DNA of 64,000 bases, from positions 2,294,001 through 2,358,000 of the forward strand of contig NZ_CP094984.1 of assembly GCF_022869865.1 (NCBI RefSeq), in the 5' to 3' direction. Positions 53,117-63,623 of this stretch are shown piece after piece. The notes below the pieces were generated by a model that did not search any database, had not been told where the DNA came from, and was given only the letters and a program-made list of their open reading frames with translations. Within the stretch, counting starts at the first letter, position 1, and each line of letters starts with the position of its first letter. The position numbers and the translations under genes are program-made. Source of the stretch: Arthrobacter zhangbolii (GTDB lineage: Bacteria; Actinomycetota; Actinomycetes; Actinomycetales; Micrococcaceae).

Positions 53117-53985
53117 CGGGGGTCCGCCATGTCCAGTCCAAGGTCCAGTGCCCGGACACTGTGGGTGAGGGCCCCGGCGGAGATCAGGTCCACTCCGGTG
53201 GCGGCTATGGCGGCCACGGTGTCGAGCCGGACATTGCCGCTGGCTTCGGTCAGGGCCCGGCCACCGATCAGCTCCACGGCGCGGCTCAGCTGCGCAGGAG
53301 TGAAGTTATCCAGCAGGACGGTATCCGCTCCTCCGGCCAGGACTGCCTCGATCTGGTCCAGACGGTCTACCTCCACCTCAAAATGGACGGTGTGCGGGAG
53401 CTGCGCGCGGGCCCGGCGCAGCGCCCGGGAGAGCTCCTCGCCGGTGCCGAGCAGTGCCAGATGGTTGTCCTTGGCCATCACGGCGTCCGAAAGGGAGAAC
53501 CGGTGGTTGAAGCCCCCGCCGCAGCGCACGGCATGGCGTTCCAGGATGCGCAGCCCGGGGGTGGTCTTGCGGGTATCGGTAATCCGTGCCGATGTACCAC
53601 GGGTTTCCGCCACGAACGCCGCCGTCACCGTGGCGATTCCGCTCAGCCGCTGGGCCAGGTTCAGTGCCACCCGTTCGGCGGTGAGGATGGCGCGCGACGG
53701 GCCGCTGATCTTCGCCAGGACGGCACCGGCGTCGAACGCTTCACCGTCCCGGACCCGGAGCGCCACACGGGTTTCCGCCGAGGTGGCCCGGAAGGCTGCT
53801 TCAAGGACCTGGCTGCCGCAGAAGACTCCTGCCTCCCGTGCGGTCAGCTGCGCCGTTCCGTGAGCCTCCGCCGGGATCAGCGCCGTGCTGGTCAGGTCTC
53901 CCCATGGTGCGTCCTCGGCCAGGGCCGCGGTAACAATGCGTTCGACGGCGGCCGGATCCGCTGCCGGGATCTCCTGGGTGTTCAT
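53113..53985 (-). CDS. nadC: Nicotinate-nucleotide pyrophosphorylase (carboxylating)
   Basis: 290 residues. It converts quinolinate and PRPP to nicotinate mononucleotide. Landmarks are EDAPWGDLTSTALIPA, FCGSQVLEAAF, LNLAQRLSGIAT, ARITDTRKTTPGLRILERHAVRCGGGFNHRF and the late VLLDNFTPAQLSRAV. Basic residues in RDTRKTTPG and GGGFNHR bind quinolinate. The ATG overlaps the nadB stop, and the stop overlaps the next start, so translation is coupled through the operon. Confidence 0.96.
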   Translation of the reverse strand: MNTQEIPAADPAAVERIVTAALAEDAPWGDLTSTALIPAEAHGTAQLTAREAGVFCGSQVLEAAFRATSAETRVALRVRDGEAFDAGAVLAKISGPSRAILTAERVALNLAQRLSGIATVTAAFVAETRGTSARITDTRKTTPGLRILERHAVRCGGGFNHRFSLSDAVMAKDNHLALLGTGEELSRALRRARAQLPHTVHFEVEVDRLDQIEAVLAGGADTVLLDNFTPAQLSRAVELIGGRALTEASGNVRLDTVAAIAATGVDLISAGALTHSVRALDLGLDMADPR

Positions 53986-55751
53986 ACTCTTACGTCCGTT
54001 CTCTCCCGCCGCGCAGGGATATGCGGGCTGTCCGTTCGGTAATGTGCCCCGAGCGAGGTGTGCCGCTGCAGGGCAGCACCCACCAGCAGCCGGGCGCAGG
54101 TGAGCAGGTTCGCGGTTTCCCGCTCCGCCACGGAGCTTCCTGCCGGCGGCAGCCAGGACGCCAGCTGCCGGGCAGCAGCGGCCAGGCCGTCGGCGTTGCG
54201 CAGCACTCCGGCGGAGCCGGACATCAGTGCCTGCAGCCGGTCCCGGGTAACCACTGCATACCCGCCGCCCTCCGGCCCGGCGGGACCCTGCGCGGCTAAA
54301 CTCTGCAGCACTGAAGCCGGGAGAACCGGGGCCTGTGGAACTGATGCCTGTGGAACCGAAGCCTGTGGAGCTGATGCCTGTGGAACCGAAGCCTGCGGAA
54401 CTGAAGCCTGCCGGCCGACCGTTCCGGGCATCAGGGCTCCGGGCTGTGGGGGTCCGGATTGCTGGGCTCCGGTTTCGGCTTCGGCTGCGGCTTCGGGCCA
54501 GGGCACGCCGGCCCGGACTGCGGCAGCGGTACGTGCCCCGAACACCAGGGCCTCGAGCAGTGAGTTGGAGGCCAGCCGGTTGGCACCGTGCACGCCGGTA
54601 CAGGCGTTCTCCCCCACGGCGTAGAGACCGGGGACCGAGGTACGCCCGGCAAGGTCCGTACGGATTCCGCCCATCCAGTAGTGCGCCGCCGGTACCACCG
54701 GTACCGGCTCCCGTTCCCAGTCAAAGCCATGGGCTGAGGTAAGCGCGTCCAGGCCCGGGAAACGGCGGGCGAGGTATCCCGGACCGTGCCGGTGCCCGAG
54801 GCCGGTGGCGTCCAGGAAAACGCGGTGCGCTCCTGTCTCCTGCAGATGGAGCGCAATGCCGCGGGCCACCACATCCCGGCCGGAAAGCTCGGCTCCGGAT
54901 TCGGCTCCGGATTCGGCTCCGGACCCTATGTCCGAGTCCGTATCGGAGCCGGATCCTGCGACCAGGCCTGTATCGGCGCCTGCCCCCGCGAGGAACCGGA
55001 TTCCGGCAACGTCCCGAAGTACTGCACCCTCGCCGCGCACAGCCTCGGACACCAGCGGATGGCCGGGGACGTCCAGTGCCGTGGGATGGAACTGGAAAAA
55101 CTCGAGATCCGCCAGCGCTGCCCCCGCACCGGCGGCGAGCGCAACACCGTCGCCGGTGGCAGAGGCGGGATTGGTGCTCTGTGCGTAGAGCTCCCCCGCA
55201 CCACCGGTCGCCAGCACCAGGGCAGTGACGGGCAGAATGCTCAGTACGCCGTCGGGATCCTGCACCTGAAGCCCCGCAACCCGCCCGCTTGCCAGCACAA
55301 TATCCGTGGCAAAGGTGTGCTCGCGGATGCCGATTTTCGGTTCGGCACGCACCGCAGCCGTCAGCGCCACCGCAATCCCGGCGCCGGTGGCGTCTCCGTT
55401 CACGTGCAGCACGCGCCGGGCACTGTGTCCGCCCTCCAGCCCGGGTTCGGGATCAAAGTCCACCCCGAGCCGGACCAGTTCGGCAATGTGTTCGGCGGCC
55501 TCGGTGCACAGCGCAGCGACGGCTTCCGGGGTGTTGGTGCCTGCGCCGGCCTTCAGCGTGTCCTGGATGTGGAGGCGGACGGAATCCGGACCCCGGAGCA
55601 CAGCGGCAATCCCGCCCTGCGCATACGGAGTGGCACCGCTGAGCAGTTCGCCCTTGGTCACCAGAGCGACGTCCAACCCGGCGCGCGCGGCACACAGTGC
55701 GGTGTAGAGCCCGGCAACTCCGCTGCCCACAACCGTCAGGGGCAGCGTCAC
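53982..55751 (-). CDS. nadB: L-aspartate oxidase
   Basis: 589 residues. FAD-dependent oxidation of L-aspartate to iminoaspartate, the substrate of NadA. FAD loop VVGSGVAGLYTALCAARAGLDVALVTK; GGAGELYAQSTNPASATGDGVALA; HPTALDVPGH with the catalytic region; AHYWMGGIRTDLAGRTSVPGLYAVGE; and GANRLASNSLLEALVFG. About 50 residues longer than usual because of two low-complexity inserts: Ser/Gly/Asp/Glu-rich at about 262-290 and QASVP-type pentapeptide repeats at about 445-485. GTG start overlaps the nadA stop. Confidence 0.95.
   Translation of the reverse strand: MTLPLTVVGSGVAGLYTALCAARAGLDVALVTKGELLSGATPYAQGGIAAVLRGPDSVRLHIQDTLKAGAGTNTPEAVAALCTEAAEHIAELVRLGVDFDPEPGLEGGHSARRVLHVNGDATGAGIAVALTAAVRAEPKIGIREHTFATDIVLASGRVAGLQVQDPDGVLSILPVTALVLATGGAGELYAQSTNPASATGDGVALAAGAGAALADLEFFQFHPTALDVPGHPLVSEAVRGEGAVLRDVAGIRFLAGAGADTGLVAGSGSDTDSDIGSGAESGAESGAELSGRDVVARGIALHLQETGAHRVFLDATGLGHRHGPGYLARRFPGLDALTSAHGFDWEREPVPVVPAAHYWMGGIRTDLAGRTSVPGLYAVGENACTGVHGANRLASNSLLEALVFGARTAAAVRAGVPWPEAAAEAETGAQQSGPPQPGALMPGTVGRQASVPQASVPQASAPQASVPQASVPQAPVLPASVLQSLAAQGPAGPEGGGYAVVTRDRLQALMSGSAGVLRNADGLAAAARQLASWLPPAGSSVAERETANLLTCARLLVGAALQRHTSLGAHYRTDSPHIPARRERTDVRV
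54301..54410. repeat. 15-bp tandem repeat inside nadB
   Basis: Five clear 15-bp units (54331-54405, for example GCCTGTGGAACTGAT and GCCTGTGGAACCGAA) with degenerate units on both sides. Read on the minus strand they encode repeated QASVP-like pentapeptides. The period is a multiple of three, so unit gain or loss keeps the frame. Confidence 0.88.
54891..54926. repeat. 12-bp tandem repeat inside nadB
   Basis: Three 12-bp units (GGCTCCGGATTC twice, then GGCTCCGGACCC), encoding ESGA-type tetrapeptides in the first low-complexity insert of NadB. Confidence 0.8.
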
Positions 55752-57870: not shown

Positions 57871-58347
57871 TCAGGGATCCGAGACGGCTGCCGCGTTCAG
57901 CAGCGGCAGCATCCGGCCTTCGAAATGCGTGTTGAGCACAATCACCGAGGACGTCCGCAGCACGGTATTGGTGGCCACAATTGCGTCGATGACCCGCTGC
58001 AGGTCCGAGTTGGACCGCGCCGCCACCCTGGCCAGGAGATCACTTTCACCGGACACGGTATGCACTTCCTGGATCTCCGGAATCCGGGACAGTGCCTGCA
58101 CCACCGCATCGTGGCCGGTATCCTGGCGGATGGTCAGGGAGCAGTACGCCACCACGTCATAGCCGAGGGCTTCGGCATCAATCCGCGGACCCCAACCGGC
58201 GATCACGCCCGTCTGCTGCATCCTGTCCAGCCTCGCCTGCACAGTGGCCCGGGCCACCTCCAGCCGCCGGGATGCCTCAAGCACCGACATCCGGGGGTTG
58301 TCGGTAAAGAGTGTGACAATGCGGGCGTCCAGCGCGTCGGTTGGCAT
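57871..58347 (-). CDS. Lrp/AsnC-family transcriptional regulator
   Basis: 158 residues. N-terminal AsnC helix-turn-helix (LDARIVTLFTDNPRMSVLEASRRLEVARATVQARLDRMQQTGVI) and C-terminal RAM ligand-binding domain (AYCSLTIRQDTGHDAVVQALSRIPEIQEVHTVSGESDLLARVAARSNSDLQRVIDAI). It is divergent from the amino-acid permease gene across 204 bp, so it likely controls that gene and senses an amino acid. Not part of the NAD operon; the nrtR operator lies between. Confidence 0.93.
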   Translation of the reverse strand: MPTDALDARIVTLFTDNPRMSVLEASRRLEVARATVQARLDRMQQTGVIAGWGPRIDAEALGYDVVAYCSLTIRQDTGHDAVVQALSRIPEIQEVHTVSGESDLLARVAARSNSDLQRVIDAIVATNTVLRTSSVIVLNTHFEGRMLPLLNAAAVSDP

Positions 58348-58551: not shown

Positions 58552-59982
58552 ATGCCCGGTTCCGCCCTCCCGTCCCGTACCGATACGCCTTCTCCGGCCG
58601 GGAAAGACTCCGGGTCACAGAAAAAGATGCAGCCGCGGCACCTGGTTCTGATGAGCCTGGGCAGCGCCATCGGCACGGGACTCTTCGTCGGCTCCGGCGC
58701 AGGCATTGCGGCAGCCGGCCCGGCCGTGCTGATCTCCTTCCTGGTTGCCGGAACGATGGTGATCCTGGTGATGCGCATGATGGGCGAAATGGCCGCTGCG
58801 GATCCCAACAGCGGCGCGTTTTCCGTTTATGCGGAAAAGGCGCTTGGCCGCACTGCCGGGACGACCGTCGGCTGGCTCTGGTGGATCCAGATAGTCATTG
58901 TCATTGCGGCCGAGGCCACGGCGGCCGCCGCCATTGTCACGTCCCTGATCCCCGGCATCGAGCAGTGGATCCTGGCCCTGGCCTTCATCGTTGTCTTCAC
59001 AGCCATCAACCTGGCAGGGGCCGCCAGCCTGGGCGAGTTTGAGTACTGGTTTGCCATCCTGAAGGTGGCAGCCATCATCATTTTCCTGGCGGTGGGAGCC
59101 GCGTTCATTGCCGGCTGGCTTCCGGGCGCTGACTCCCCCGGGGTGGACAACCTCTTCAACAACGGCGGATTTATGCCCAACGGCATTACCGGGGTGGCCG
59201 CGGGCCTGCTGCTCGTGGTGTTCGCGTTCGGGGGTACCGAAATTGTCACCATTGCTGCCGCGGACACCGAGGAACCGTCCAAATCCATTGCGGGGGCCAT
59301 CACCTCGGTGATCTGGCGGATCCTGATCTTCTACATCGGTTCTGTCCTGGTGATGGTCACGGTGCTGCCCTGGGACAACGAGGCCCTCAACACGGGCCCC
59401 TTTGTGGCCGTGCTGCATGCAGCCCAGGTGCCTGGAGCAGACACCGTGATGGCCGTGGTGATCGTGATCGCCCTGCTCTCGGCCATGAACGCGAATCTCT
59501 ACGGGGCCTCACGGATGATCTACTCGCTCGGCGACCGCGGGCGCGCACCGGCCGCCCTGGCGAGGCTGGGCCGCGGCGGGGTCCCGCGGCGCGCGGTTGT
59601 GGCCTCGGTGGCCTTCGGGTTCATTGCCGTGGTGCTGAACTACCTCTACCCGGACACCGTGCTGATGATCCTGCTGAACCTGGTGGGTTCCACCTGCCTG
59701 GTGGTGTGGGGCATCTCGATTGTTTCGCAGATAATCCTGCGCCGCCGGGCCGATGCCGCCGGAGTGGAACTGACGTTCCGGATGTGGGCGTTCCCCTGGC
59801 TCTCCTACTTTGCCCTGGCACTGCTGGCGGCGATTGTGGTGCTTGGTTTCTTCGACGCGGCCGTCCGCGTGCAGCTGGTGGCCACGGCCGGTCTGACGGC
59901 CGCGCTGGTCCTCCTGGCCTGGCTGTTCGACCGCCGCACCACCCGCCGGTCCCGGACAGCAGCGGCGGACCCGGCAGAATAG
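58552..59982 (+). CDS. Amino-acid permease (APC family)
   Basis: 476 residues, twelve predicted helices. The first contains the family signature LMSLGSAIGTGLFVGSGAGIAAAGPAVL. EMAAADPNSGAFSVYAEKALGR follows, and the EIVTIAAADTEEPSKSI loop is typical of the AAT/AnsP-type branch. A ~25-residue Ser/Pro/Lys-rich tail precedes helix 1. No clear ribosome-binding site precedes the ATG, so the start could lie at MQPRHLV instead. Divergent Lrp regulator upstream. Amino-acid uptake is likely; specificity is unknown. Confidence 0.92.
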   Translation: MPGSALPSRTDTPSPAGKDSGSQKKMQPRHLVLMSLGSAIGTGLFVGSGAGIAAAGPAVLISFLVAGTMVILVMRMMGEMAAADPNSGAFSVYAEKALGRTAGTTVGWLWWIQIVIVIAAEATAAAAIVTSLIPGIEQWILALAFIVVFTAINLAGAASLGEFEYWFAILKVAAIIIFLAVGAAFIAGWLPGADSPGVDNLFNNGGFMPNGITGVAAGLLLVVFAFGGTEIVTIAAADTEEPSKSIAGAITSVIWRILIFYIGSVLVMVTVLPWDNEALNTGPFVAVLHAAQVPGADTVMAVVIVIALLSAMNANLYGASRMIYSLGDRGRAPAALARLGRGGVPRRAVVASVAFGFIAVVLNYLYPDTVLMILLNLVGSTCLVVWGISIVSQIILRRRADAAGVELTFRMWAFPWLSYFALALLAAIVVLGFFDAAVRVQLVATAGLTAALVLLAWLFDRRTTRRSRTAAADPAE

Positions 59983-60372: not shown

Positions 60373-61395
60373 ATGGATAACTCTATGGATCCGGCGCCCC
60401 TGGCGCCGGAGGAACTGCGCAGGCTTTACCGCCTGATCACCGCCGCACGGCAGCTGGATCTCGCCGCCGTGGCCTGGCAGCGTCAGGGGATTATTCCCGG
60501 CTATGCCCCTGCCCTGGGCCAGGAAGCCGCCCAGGTGGGCAGCGCCTTCGCCATGGACCCTAAACGCGACTTTATCTTCCCCACCTACCGGGAAATGGGT
60601 GCGGCGCTGGCCCTGGGCGTGGACATGACCGAGTACATGTCCACCCACAAGGCCAGCTGGCATGGCGGTCTCTACGATCCGGTGCGCACCGGATTTGCTC
60701 CAATCCAGGCAGTGGTCGGCGGTTCAGTGCTGCACGCGGTGGGTTGGGCCCACGGCCAGACCCTGAACGGCGGCACGGGCGGCGTGGCACTGACCTATTT
60801 CGGTGACGGCGCCAGCTCGCAGGGTGATGTCCATGAGGCCATGAACTTTGCCGGCGTACTGAAGGCCCCGGTGATTTTCTTCGTCCAGAACAACGGCTGG
60901 GCCATTTCGCTGCCCACCGAGGCACAGGTGGCGGGCGGCACGGTTGCAGCCCGCGCTGCCGGGTACGGCATGCGTGCCATCACTGTGGACGGCAATGACG
61001 CCCCCGCCGTCGTTTCCGCCACCCGCGAGGCGGCAGCCCATGCCCGCGCAGGGCATGGTCCGGTGCTGATCGAGGCCATGACTTACCGCCGCGGTCCGCA
61101 CTCCACCAGCGACGACCCCGGGCGCTACCGCAGCCTGGATGAGGAACGCCGCGACGCCGGCCCGGATCCCGTCCAGCTGCTGGCCGACCGGCTGCTGGCC
61201 GGAGGCCTGGCGGACCGGGACTTCCTGGATGCCGCCCTCGAAGAAGCAAAGGACAACGCCGAACGCATCCGCGAAGGCGTGGAGGCCCTGGGCCCGCGGC
61301 CGGGCACGGAGATGTTCGACTTTGTCTATGCCGAACCCACCGAAGCACTCAAGGCCCAGGCGCGTGCCTGGCGGGAGGAATCCGAACATGTCTGA
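60373..61395 (+). CDS. Thiamine-dependent 2-oxoacid dehydrogenase E1 alpha subunit
   Basis: 340 residues. First half of the heterotetrameric E1 that decarboxylates a 2-keto acid on ThDP. ThDP/Mg motif GDGASSQGDVHEAMNFAGVLKAPVIFFVQNN; phosphorylation-loop-type segment TYRRGPHSTSDDPGRYRS. The HSTSDDPGRYR wording is that of branched-chain 2-oxoacid dehydrogenases (BkdA) rather than pyruvate dehydrogenases, but substrate cannot be fixed by sequence; an acetoin-type enzyme is possible given the operon. Leaderless message. Its stop lies inside the next start (8-bp overlap). Confidence 0.93.
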   Translation: MDNSMDPAPLAPEELRRLYRLITAARQLDLAAVAWQRQGIIPGYAPALGQEAAQVGSAFAMDPKRDFIFPTYREMGAALALGVDMTEYMSTHKASWHGGLYDPVRTGFAPIQAVVGGSVLHAVGWAHGQTLNGGTGGVALTYFGDGASSQGDVHEAMNFAGVLKAPVIFFVQNNGWAISLPTEAQVAGGTVAARAAGYGMRAITVDGNDAPAVVSATREAAAHARAGHGPVLIEAMTYRRGPHSTSDDPGRYRSLDEERRDAGPDPVQLLADRLLAGGLADRDFLDAALEEAKDNAERIREGVEALGPRPGTEMFDFVYAEPTEALKAQARAWREESEHV

Positions 61396-62494
61396 GCAGC
61401 TTACCGAGGCAGTACCCTCCTCCGATCTGGCCGAAGCGGCCCGCAACACCGAAGACACGGCTGCCACCCGCCAGTCTGCCGCCACGCCGCCCGCGCCGTC
61501 CGGCCGCGGCCAGGTAGAGCAGCTTTCCATGCAGCAGGCCCTCAACCGTGCCCTGGCCGAAATCCTGGCCGAAGATCCCAAGGCCCTCGTCCTGGGCGAG
61601 GACGTAGGCCGGCTGGGCGGGGTTTTCCGCATCACGGACGGCCTGCAGAAGCGTTTCGGTGTCGACCGGGTCATGGACACTCCCCTGGCCGAATCCGGCA
61701 TCCTGGGTATGTCCGTGGGCCTGGCCATGGCAGGCTTCCACCCCATTCCCGAAGTGCAGTTTGACGGGTTCGCTTATCCGGCCGTCAACCAGATCATCAC
61801 GCAGCTGGCCCGGATGAACTACCGCAGCCGCGGCACCCTGCCCATGCCGGTGACCCTGCGGGTACCCAGCTTCGGCGGAATCCGCGCCCCCGAGCACCAC
61901 GGAGAATCGCTGGAAGCACTGTTCGCCCATGTTCCGGGGCTGAAGGTCGTCTCCCCCTCGAGCCCGCATGAGGCCTACCACCTGCTCAGGCATTCGGTGG
62001 CTGTTCCGGACCCGGTGATCTTCATGGAACCGAAGTCCCGCTACTGGCAGAAGGGCGAAGTGAACCTTGGCCACGCCGGCCCGGTGGAGGGCGCCAAGGT
62101 GGTCCGTCCGGGCAGGCACGTCACCCTCGTGGCGTGGGGCGCCATGGTGGCACGCTGCCTCCAGGTGGCCGAACTGGCCGCCGAAGACGGCATTGAGGTG
62201 GAGGTCCTGGACCTGCGCTGGCTGAAGCCGATCGACGCCGCCGCCCTGGCCGAATCCGTCGGCCGGACCCGGCGCGCCGTCGTCGTCCATGAGGCGCCGC
62301 TGACCTCCGGCCTGGGCGCCGAGGTGGCCGCGCTGATCACCGAGCACTGCTTCGACACCCTGCGCGCCCCGGTTGGGCGGGTCACCGGATTCGACGTACC
62401 GTATCCGTCAGGAGACCTTGAAGACGAATACATCCCGAACATCGACCGCATCCTGTTCGGGATCCAGCGAGTATTGGAGTACCGGCGTGGCTGA
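61388..62494 (+). CDS. 2-oxoacid dehydrogenase E1 beta subunit
   Basis: 368 residues from ATG 61388 (MSEQLTEAV), with a ~45-residue low-complexity extension before the transketolase-like domain. Landmarks are MQQALNRALAEILAEDPKALVLGEDVGRLGGVFRIT, DTPLAESGILGMSVGLAMAGFHPIPEVQF, PSFGGIRAPEHHGESLEALFAHVPGLKVV, VIFMEPK and the C-terminal transketolase domain DLRWLKPIDAAALAESV. It pairs with the E1 alpha subunit encoded just upstream. The start overlaps E1 alpha by 8 bp and the end overlaps the lipoyl-protein gene by 8 bp. Confidence 0.94.
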   Translation: MSEQLTEAVPSSDLAEAARNTEDTAATRQSAATPPAPSGRGQVEQLSMQQALNRALAEILAEDPKALVLGEDVGRLGGVFRITDGLQKRFGVDRVMDTPLAESGILGMSVGLAMAGFHPIPEVQFDGFAYPAVNQIITQLARMNYRSRGTLPMPVTLRVPSFGGIRAPEHHGESLEALFAHVPGLKVVSPSSPHEAYHLLRHSVAVPDPVIFMEPKSRYWQKGEVNLGHAGPVEGAKVVRPGRHVTLVAWGAMVARCLQVAELAAEDGIEVEVLDLRWLKPIDAAALAESVGRTRRAVVVHEAPLTSGLGAEVAALITEHCFDTLRAPVGRVTGFDVPYPSGDLEDEYIPNIDRILFGIQRVLEYRRG

Positions 62495-62816
62495 AATTTC
62501 CTTCCCCCTTCCCGACCTCGGCGAAGGACTGATCGAAGCCACCGTGCTGGAATGGCTCGTGGCCGAAGGCGACCAGGTGGAGCGCAACCAGCCGCTGGTG
62601 GAGGTGGAAACGACCAAATCCGCAGTGGAACTCCCCTCCCCGCAGGCCGGGAAGGTAGCCCGCATCTACGGGGAACCCGGCGACAGGATCAATGTGGGCG
62701 AGCCGCTTATTGTGTTCGAAGTGCCGGACAACACCGCCGGCATTGTCGGTACCGTTCCGCAGGAGGCCCCGGCGAAGCGCCGGGTCCGGCTGAGCGCCGT
62801 CCTGGACGAGGACTGA
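62487..62816 (+). CDS. Stand-alone lipoyl-domain protein (E2-like, no catalytic domain)
   Basis: 109 residues from GTG 62487. Residues 1-78 are a complete lipoyl domain: ISFPLPDLGEGLIEATVLEWLVAEGDQVERNQPLVEVETTKSAVELPSP, with the lipoylated Lys in VETTKSAVE. A short basic tail, KRRVRLSAVLDED, follows and then a stop. There is no peripheral-subunit-binding domain and no acyltransferase domain with HxxxDG. E2 proteins normally exceed 350 residues. I checked the downstream reading frames for a frameshifted continuation and found none. The alpha/beta hydrolase gene starts 3 bp later. Confidence 0.9.
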   Translation: MAEISFPLPDLGEGLIEATVLEWLVAEGDQVERNQPLVEVETTKSAVELPSPQAGKVARIYGEPGDRINVGEPLIVFEVPDNTAGIVGTVPQEAPAKRRVRLSAVLDED

Positions 62817-62819
62817 CCG

Positions 62820-63623
62820 GTGTCCGGCCACGGCTCCCTGGTGGAAGGCACCGATCCCCGACTGGATGTCCAGGTGTTCGCGGGCGACGACGACGGCGCG
62901 GACTCCCGCCGTCCGGTCCTGCTGCTGCATGGATTTGCCTCCGACTCGCAGTTGAACTGGCACAATTCCGGCTGGGTGAATGCCCTGCTCGCCGCCGGCA
63001 GGCAGGTCATCACGGTGGACCTGCCCGGCCACGGCGCCAGCGCCGCGCCGGCGGACCTCGACGCCTACCGTCCCAGCCGCATCCGCGCGGACCTGCTGCA
63101 GGTGGTACAGGACGCGGGTGTCCGGCCGCTGGCCAACGCCGACCCGGGGAGCGGGCTGGACGTAGTGGGCTATTCCCTGGGCTCACGGCTGGCATGGGAG
63201 TTCGGGGCCACGCAGCCCGAGCTGGTGCACCGGATGGTGCTGGGCGGGCCCGGCTGCGGTGATCCGCTGGCTGATTTCGATCTGGACGCCGCCCGGGAGG
63301 CTGCCGCAGGCGGAGCGCCGGTAGCGGATCCGCGTACCGCCGAGCTGCTCCGGATGGCGCAGCTGGTCCCGCAGAACAACCTCGCTGCGCTTTTCCGTAT
63401 GGTCGAGGCCATCAAGGAGGAGCCCTTCTCCCCCGCAGCCGCCGTGCCCGGGATGCCGCTGCTGCTGGTAGCCGGCGAGCGGGATGATCTGGCCGCCACG
63501 GCGCCCGAGCTGGCAGCGCTGAGCGGACAGGCAGACATGCTCACCCTCCCCGCCCGTACGCATGCCAATGCCGTCACGTCCCGGGCGTTTAAGACCGCCG
63601 CACTGGACTTCCTGGCGGGCTGA
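62820..63623 (+). CDS. Alpha/beta-fold hydrolase in the dehydrogenase operon
   Basis: 267 residues from GTG 62820. Oxyanion motif LLLHGFASDSQLNWHNSG; nucleophile elbow DVVGYSLGSRLAWEFG (Ser); the acid is likely near VAGERDDLAAT and the His near LPARTHANAV. Acetoin-dehydrogenase E2 proteins of the AcoC type are a lipoyl domain fused to exactly such a hydrolase fold, so this gene plus the preceding lipoyl gene may be the split equivalent. No acyltransferase motif. Confidence 0.87.
   Translation: MSGHGSLVEGTDPRLDVQVFAGDDDGADSRRPVLLLHGFASDSQLNWHNSGWVNALLAAGRQVITVDLPGHGASAAPADLDAYRPSRIRADLLQVVQDAGVRPLANADPGSGLDVVGYSLGSRLAWEFGATQPELVHRMVLGGPGCGDPLADFDLDAAREAAAGGAPVADPRTAELLRMAQLVPQNNLAALFRMVEAIKEEPFSPAAAVPGMPLLLVAGERDDLAATAPELAALSGQADMLTLPARTHANAVTSRAFKTAALDFLAG

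Follow-up and report, generated by a model that had tools for sequence, protein, structure and literature searches.

A Conserved Branched-Chain-Type 2-Oxoacid Dehydrogenase Operon in Arthrobacter Encoding a Stand-Alone Lipoyl Protein and a Linked Hydrolase

Results

An E1 Operon with a Lipoyl Protein and a Hydrolase but No E2 Core

An operon of Arthrobacter zhangbolii encodes both E1 subunits of a branched-chain-type 2-oxoacid dehydrogenase, followed by a stand-alone lipoyl protein (LIP) and an α/β hydrolase (HYD) (Table 1). The accepted swinging-arm mechanism of 2-oxoacid dehydrogenases relies on an E2 core to which E1 and E3 are bound and which houses the site of acyl transfer. As read from its sequence, the four-gene operon, which is conserved in some soil actinobacteria, suggests that acyl groups may be released from the carrier with no conventional core enzyme involved. 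The DNA analyzed here (the window) spans 64,000 nt of the forward strand (GCF_022869865.1, NZ_CP094984.1, 2,294,001–2,358,000). A first-pass annotation of the window had described E1α, E1β, a 109-residue protein that is only a lipoyl domain, and a hydrolase gene 3 bp downstream; inspection of the open reading frames and Pfam searches confirmed this arrangement. The E1α/E1β and E1β/LIP reading frames each overlap by 8 nt. A decaying operon was considered and rejected, because all four reading frames are intact and conserved.

Table 1. Coordinates of the operon, its upstream genes, and selected features within the window
Feature	Position	Strand	Basis or remark
Lrp/AsnC-family regulator	57871..58347	-	AsnC/Lrp models; divergent from operon
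Amino-acid permease, APC family	58552..59982	+	GABA/proline/aromatic permease models, below cutoff
E1α, branched-chain 2-oxoacid dehydrogenase type, 340 aa	60373..61395	+	PF00676, TIGR03181, identity
E1β, 368 aa	61388..62494	+	Pfam, tree; clade adjoins E2-bearing Bkd E1β
LIP, stand-alone lipoyl protein, 109 aa	62487..62816	+	Pfam, alignment, AlphaFold2
LIP Lys44 codon, expected lipoylation site (ETTKSAVE)	62616..62618	+	Invariant in 31 LIP proteins
LIP tail AGIVGxVP...RRVRL, conserved	62736..62792	+	Homologous to Bkd E2 linker motif LVGYG...RRPR
HYD, α/β hydrolase, 267 aa, GTG start	62820..63623	+	Pfam, model, triad
HYD Ser119 codon, nucleophile (GYSLG)	63174..63176	+	Invariant
HYD Asp222 codon	63483..63485	+	Invariant
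HYD His248 codon	63561..63563	+	Invariant

The 3.46-Mb host genome contains four E1α genes of the branched-chain type. The other three each lie beside a complete Bkd-type E2 of ~470–510 aa with lipoyl, subunit-binding, and catalytic domains, and the window operon is the only E1α/E1β pair in the genome without an E2. A divergent Lrp-type gene also adjoins two of the Bkd operons. A two-lipoyl SucB-type E2 is also encoded, as is a fused 2-oxoglutarate enzyme (1355-aa frame).

The E1 Subunits Are of the Bkd Type

The E1 subunits were recognized by the Pfam families E1_dh (E1α, 251 bits), Transket_pyr, and Transketolase_C (E1β, 140 and 136 bits, respectively), and both belong to the Bkd/Gram-positive PDH type. 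The nearest model for E1α was TIGR03181, with a score (376 bits) under its 411 cutoff. E1α shares 44% identity with BkdA of the same genome vs. 31% with AcoA, and E1β is 52% identical to the genome's own Bkd E1β vs. 37–39% for the Aco counterpart. The E1α ThDP motif and HSTSDD loop are retained, and the catalytic motifs are present in nearly all of the E1α sequences scanned; pattern counts for E1β, which came from a mixed set with paralogues and partial hits, were set aside. In the E1β tree, operon proteins of two bacterial orders form one clade (SH-aLRT 95) that adjoins a clade of 33 E2-bearing Bkd E1β proteins (88), with AcoB outside; the operon clade parts basally from the E2-bearing Bkd proteins and has fixed differences from them. 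These data supported the resemblance to branched-chain dehydrogenases that the first-pass annotation had noted for E1α. The N terminus of the window E1β carries an extension of ~45 residues (61388–61522) that is low in complexity and variable among orthologues.

LIP Resembles a Truncated Bkd E2

LIP matched Pfam Biotin_lipoyl (70 bits) over residues 6–76, including the central lysine expected of a lipoyl domain, and the same searches found no E3-binding or 2-oxoacid_dh domain, in agreement with its earlier description as a free carrier. In the AlphaFold2 model, residues 2–79 form a lipoyl barrel and the tail is disordered after residue 84. Across 31 LIP proteins from both orders, little or no variation was seen at Lys44 and in the C-terminal tail, A-G-I-V-G-x-V-P...R-R-V-R/K-L. 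LIP is 49–57% identical to the lipoyl domains of the genome's own Bkd E2 proteins vs. 28–36% to the AcoC lipoyl domain.

The tail aligns with a motif in the linker of Bkd E2 proteins (e.g., GIVGTVPQEAPAKRRVRL beside LVGYGPRTTEAKRRPRN). This motif consists of LVG[Y/T/S]G and a subsequent R[R/K]x[R]; it is positioned between the lipoyl and subunit-binding domains and was found in 24/24 examined actinobacterial Bkd E2 proteins (21 scored by pattern and 3 by eye). LIP therefore resembles a Bkd E2 shortened to its lipoyl domain and linker motif, with the cut falling before the subunit-binding domain. Since E1 is the partner common to LIP and Bkd E2, the tail motif probably serves recognition by E1, and the shared LVGYG...RRPR tail draws attention to a so far unexplored feature of Bkd E2 proteins in actinobacteria. 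Among the loci collected, the motif (as LVG[YTS]G...RRPR) is carried by the Bkd E2 at L126, L127, L128, L199, L200, and L242–L269.

The Gene Order Is Conserved across Two Orders

The E1α-E1β-LIP-HYD order was found in 65/65 examined genomes with an operon-type E1β, distributed over two orders, which bears out the link between HYD and E1-LIP drawn in the first-pass annotation. Within sampled Micrococcaceae, 46 of 149 genomes have an orthologous E1β (identity ≥73%; next matches ≤57%), with LIP and HYD directly after it in all 46. One genome from another family of the same order (locus L198, genome G286) shares the Micrococcaceae gene order; its E1β is 81% identical and nested among Micrococcaceae sequences in the tree, so the operon there was probably acquired by horizontal transfer. 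Among 395 genomes sampled across the class, operon-type E1β was present in 20 from one family of a different order, and LIP and HYD followed it in 18/18 of those examined. In that family, too, an Lrp-type gene is divergent from the operon, and a Bmp-type ABC transporter lies downstream. The class-wide census relied on E1β in place of a LIP profile; a phylum-wide search with the latter, run at E 1e-32 with 12 scored candidates per genome and not a reliable census at these settings, returned the genome's own protein and one weak match on a long frame.

A full E2 in orthologous operons had been named in the first-pass annotation as evidence that would count against it. No E2 catalytic domain was detected in any operon locus, and the same queries matched 6/6 E2-bearing control loci. 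At every locus examined at the ORF level that has a full-length LIP, a stop codon lies between LIP and HYD. The operon architecture is neither decay nor local chance. Among the best 80 HYD loci, the conserved neighborhood order is NUDIX-Lrp-permease-E1α-E1β-LIP-HYD; the permease gene lies between the Lrp regulator and E1α in most loci and is missing from some. In the literature covered, no publication described an operon that pairs E1 with a stand-alone lipoyl protein; a study in Arthrobacter globiformis concerns a different subject, the inhibition of a complete E2 (PMC9239090).

HYD Is a Complete α/β Hydrolase Outside the AcoC Clade

HYD matched Pfam Abhydrolase_1 (65 bits), and AlphaFold2 predicted a complete α/β hydrolase (pLDDT 94). 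The protein has the fold, the Ser-Asp-His triad, and the nucleophile elbow of the α/β hydrolase superfamily, and the Ser119/Asp222/His248 triad is invariant in 44 HYD homologues. The sequence is otherwise variable: across operon loci, HYD identity drops to 34–44% and LIP holds at 55–76%. At loci L166 and L170, HYD is ~35% identical and differs in the DPLADFD region, with the triad kept and LIP above 70%.

The first-pass annotation had raised the possibility that LIP and HYD are a split AcoC, and had proposed comparing the hydrolase with AcoC and other esterases. On the AcoC model NF011457, HYD scored 51 bits and LIP 55 bits, compared with a cutoff of 307 and scores of 433–528 for true AcoC. 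Its score on the MenH model was 54 bits, so AcoC has no advantage over other esterases, an outcome that the first-pass annotation had listed as counting against its interpretation. In the HYD tree, the HYD proteins form a single clade (99%) apart from AcoC, which groups with other hydrolases. Because the E1β clade lies beside Bkd and the HYD clade away from AcoC, a split AcoC fails as ancestry, as it does on the model scores and on the identities of E1 and LIP, which are nearer Bkd. What holds of the earlier interpretation is a free carrier with a linked hydrolase, and what fails is the AcoC ancestry.

When the window HYD was compared with the YbfF-type model (NF007954/PRK10673), no match was obtained at E 0.001, which places HYD outside the ABHD11/YbfF family; 16 of 44 HYD relatives match that model weakly. 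A PDB sequence search with HYD returned generic hydrolases only. Fold comparison was uninformative about the HYD substrate, as about 50 esterase, enol-lactonase, and haloperoxidase folds were tied, YbfF structures among them.

HYD Is Retained after Loss of E1

E1 is gone and HYD kept in 24 of the best 80 HYD loci, 9 of which retain LIP or LIP remnants; these loci were found via their HYD, so the count covers genomes in which HYD survives and excludes those that lost everything. The Lrp gene lies alongside E1 in 54/56 loci and is full-length in 2/24 loci without E1. On the tree, the pattern of E1 loss needs nine changes, at least five of them forced by well-supported branches. Divergence at the three codon positions was 0.117/0.092/0.395 for stand-alone HYD genes and 0.076/0.058/0.319 for HYD genes in full operons. 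The stand-alone proteins have intact triads and their genes a strong third-position bias, similar to that of HYD genes in full operons; HYD without E1 is under purifying selection. The relationship is asymmetric, in that E1-LIP without HYD was never seen (65 genomes, two orders) and HYD without E1-LIP was seen often. Retention of HYD after E1 loss suggests that it also has work outside the operon, and HYD probably serves E1-LIP and something else. The neighbors of stand-alone HYD genes showed no common theme; HYD relatives adjoin genes for peptide transporters, phosphotriesterase-like lactonases, and other catabolic enzymes.

Deletion scars are visible at L081 (4320–5969) and L083 (4850–5959), where the upstream frame in the permease region runs into a LIP remnant after loss of E1α and E1β. 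At L080 (5640–5969), an intact LIP lies beside HYD with both E1 genes gone, apparently through a recent deletion.

Discussion

Relationship to Known Systems

The operon resembles the actinobacterial Bkd complex (BkdA-BkdB-BkdC) in its E1α/E1β family, its lipoyl domain, the LVGYG...RRPR motif, and the divergent Lrp-type gene. Unlike that complex, it has no subunit-binding domain or catalytic core, a hydrolase gene occupies the E2 position, and its E1β forms a separate clade. With acetoin dehydrogenase (AcoA-AcoB-AcoC) it shares the order of E1α, E1β, lipoyl domain, and α/β hydrolase, but in the operon the lipoyl and hydrolase parts are separate proteins, and none of the three components (E1, lipoyl domain, hydrolase) belongs to an Aco family. 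LIP is comparable to the LbpA lipoate-binding proteins of the sHdr sulfur-oxidation pathway (PMC6067878), which are also free small lipoyl carriers encoded in an operon; however, LIP appears to derive from a Bkd E2 and belongs to a different pathway with other partners, and the LbpA operon has no E1. HYD, like ABHD11 of mammalian mitochondria, is an α/β serine hydrolase, with action on acyl-lipoyl groups only proposed for HYD. The two belong to different sequence families, and ABHD11 has no E1-lipoyl operon.

Proposed Mechanism and Alternatives

We propose, tentatively and at somewhat less than even confidence, that the operon encodes an E2-less branched-chain-type 2-oxoacid dehydrogenase module in which HYD unloads acyl-LIP. 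The E1 (α2β2, ThDP) would decarboxylate a 2-oxoacid and reductively acylate the lipoyl-lysine (Lys44) of LIP. HYD would then release the acyl group of LIP through its Ser-His-Asp triad, with hydrolysis to the free acid as the most likely outcome; reoxidation of the carrier would fall to a general E3. The substrate may derive from an amino acid, because a Bkd-type E1 occurs together with an Lrp regulator and an amino-acid permease. Acyl-lipoyl thioesterase chemistry has a precedent in ABHD11, a human and mammalian α/β serine hydrolase that acts as a glutaryl-lipoyl thioesterase (PMC12643935). Outside the operon, acyl-lipoyl or similar thioesters are probably cleared by HYD as well, and such a wider set of lipoyl clients would account for the way HYD outlives E1-LIP. 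A bolder reading, which we consider rather unlikely, is a CoA-independent dehydrogenase: E1 would load free LIP and HYD, as a dedicated hydrolase, would unload it as the free acid or to a non-CoA acceptor, so that oxidative decarboxylation would proceed with no E2 core. Several observations weigh against hydrolysis of acyl-LIP: it wastes the thioester energy; HYD is a fast-evolving, generic hydrolase outside the ABHD11/YbfF family, and its closest solved folds are all tied; and its relatives stand alone in unrelated neighborhoods.

The presence of three Bkd-type E2 cores in the genome also counts against hydrolysis, as these could take the acyl groups. This underlies the main rival explanation, which we regard as rather unlikely: LIP would be a lipoyl arm acting in trans, acylated by the window E1 and passing its acyl group to a resident Bkd E2 core to form acyl-CoA, with HYD in an editing or accessory role. 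The three resident cores occur with their own E1, LIP retains the linker motif of those E2 proteins and is close to their lipoyl domains, and an editing role fits the survival of HYD alone. However, LIP has no subunit-binding domain and thus no evident way for E1 to assemble on a core through it, the operon E1β splits from the E2-bearing Bkd proteins at the base, and the constant adjacency of HYD and LIP is left unexplained. Another possibility is that HYD is only cotranscribed with E1-LIP and is an esterase or lactonase for an unrelated or downstream metabolite. Its persistence without E1-LIP in 24 of the best 80 loci, the lactonase and transporter genes beside its relatives, and its much faster evolution than LIP are all consistent with such a role, but the window genes abut and E1-LIP never occurs without HYD, and we consider this explanation unlikely. 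Less probable still is that HYD acts as the C-terminal domain of AcoC does, transferring acyl groups from LIP to CoA or another acceptor as a functional rather than ancestral equivalent. AcoC is a lipoyl domain fused to an α/β hydrolase and follows E1α and E1β, and in 65 genomes the corresponding position is occupied by LIP and HYD as two proteins; against this, HYD is no nearer AcoC than MenH and sits in a different clade, and E1 and LIP are of the Bkd rather than the Aco lineage.

Should HYD prove to unload acyl-LIP, the operon would represent a lineage with an E1 and a lipoyl arm, no core, and a constant hydrolase, implying that the core is replaceable, and HYD would be the bacterial equivalent of the acyl-lipoyl thioesterase described recently. 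The four proteins are small and soluble, and the system is open to direct assay.

Elsewhere in the window, an L-aspartate oxidase-like gene (53982–55751, minus strand) contains tandem repeats at 54323–54410 and 54889–54923, which encode low-complexity inserts of the (S/A)VPQA and SGSDTDSD types.
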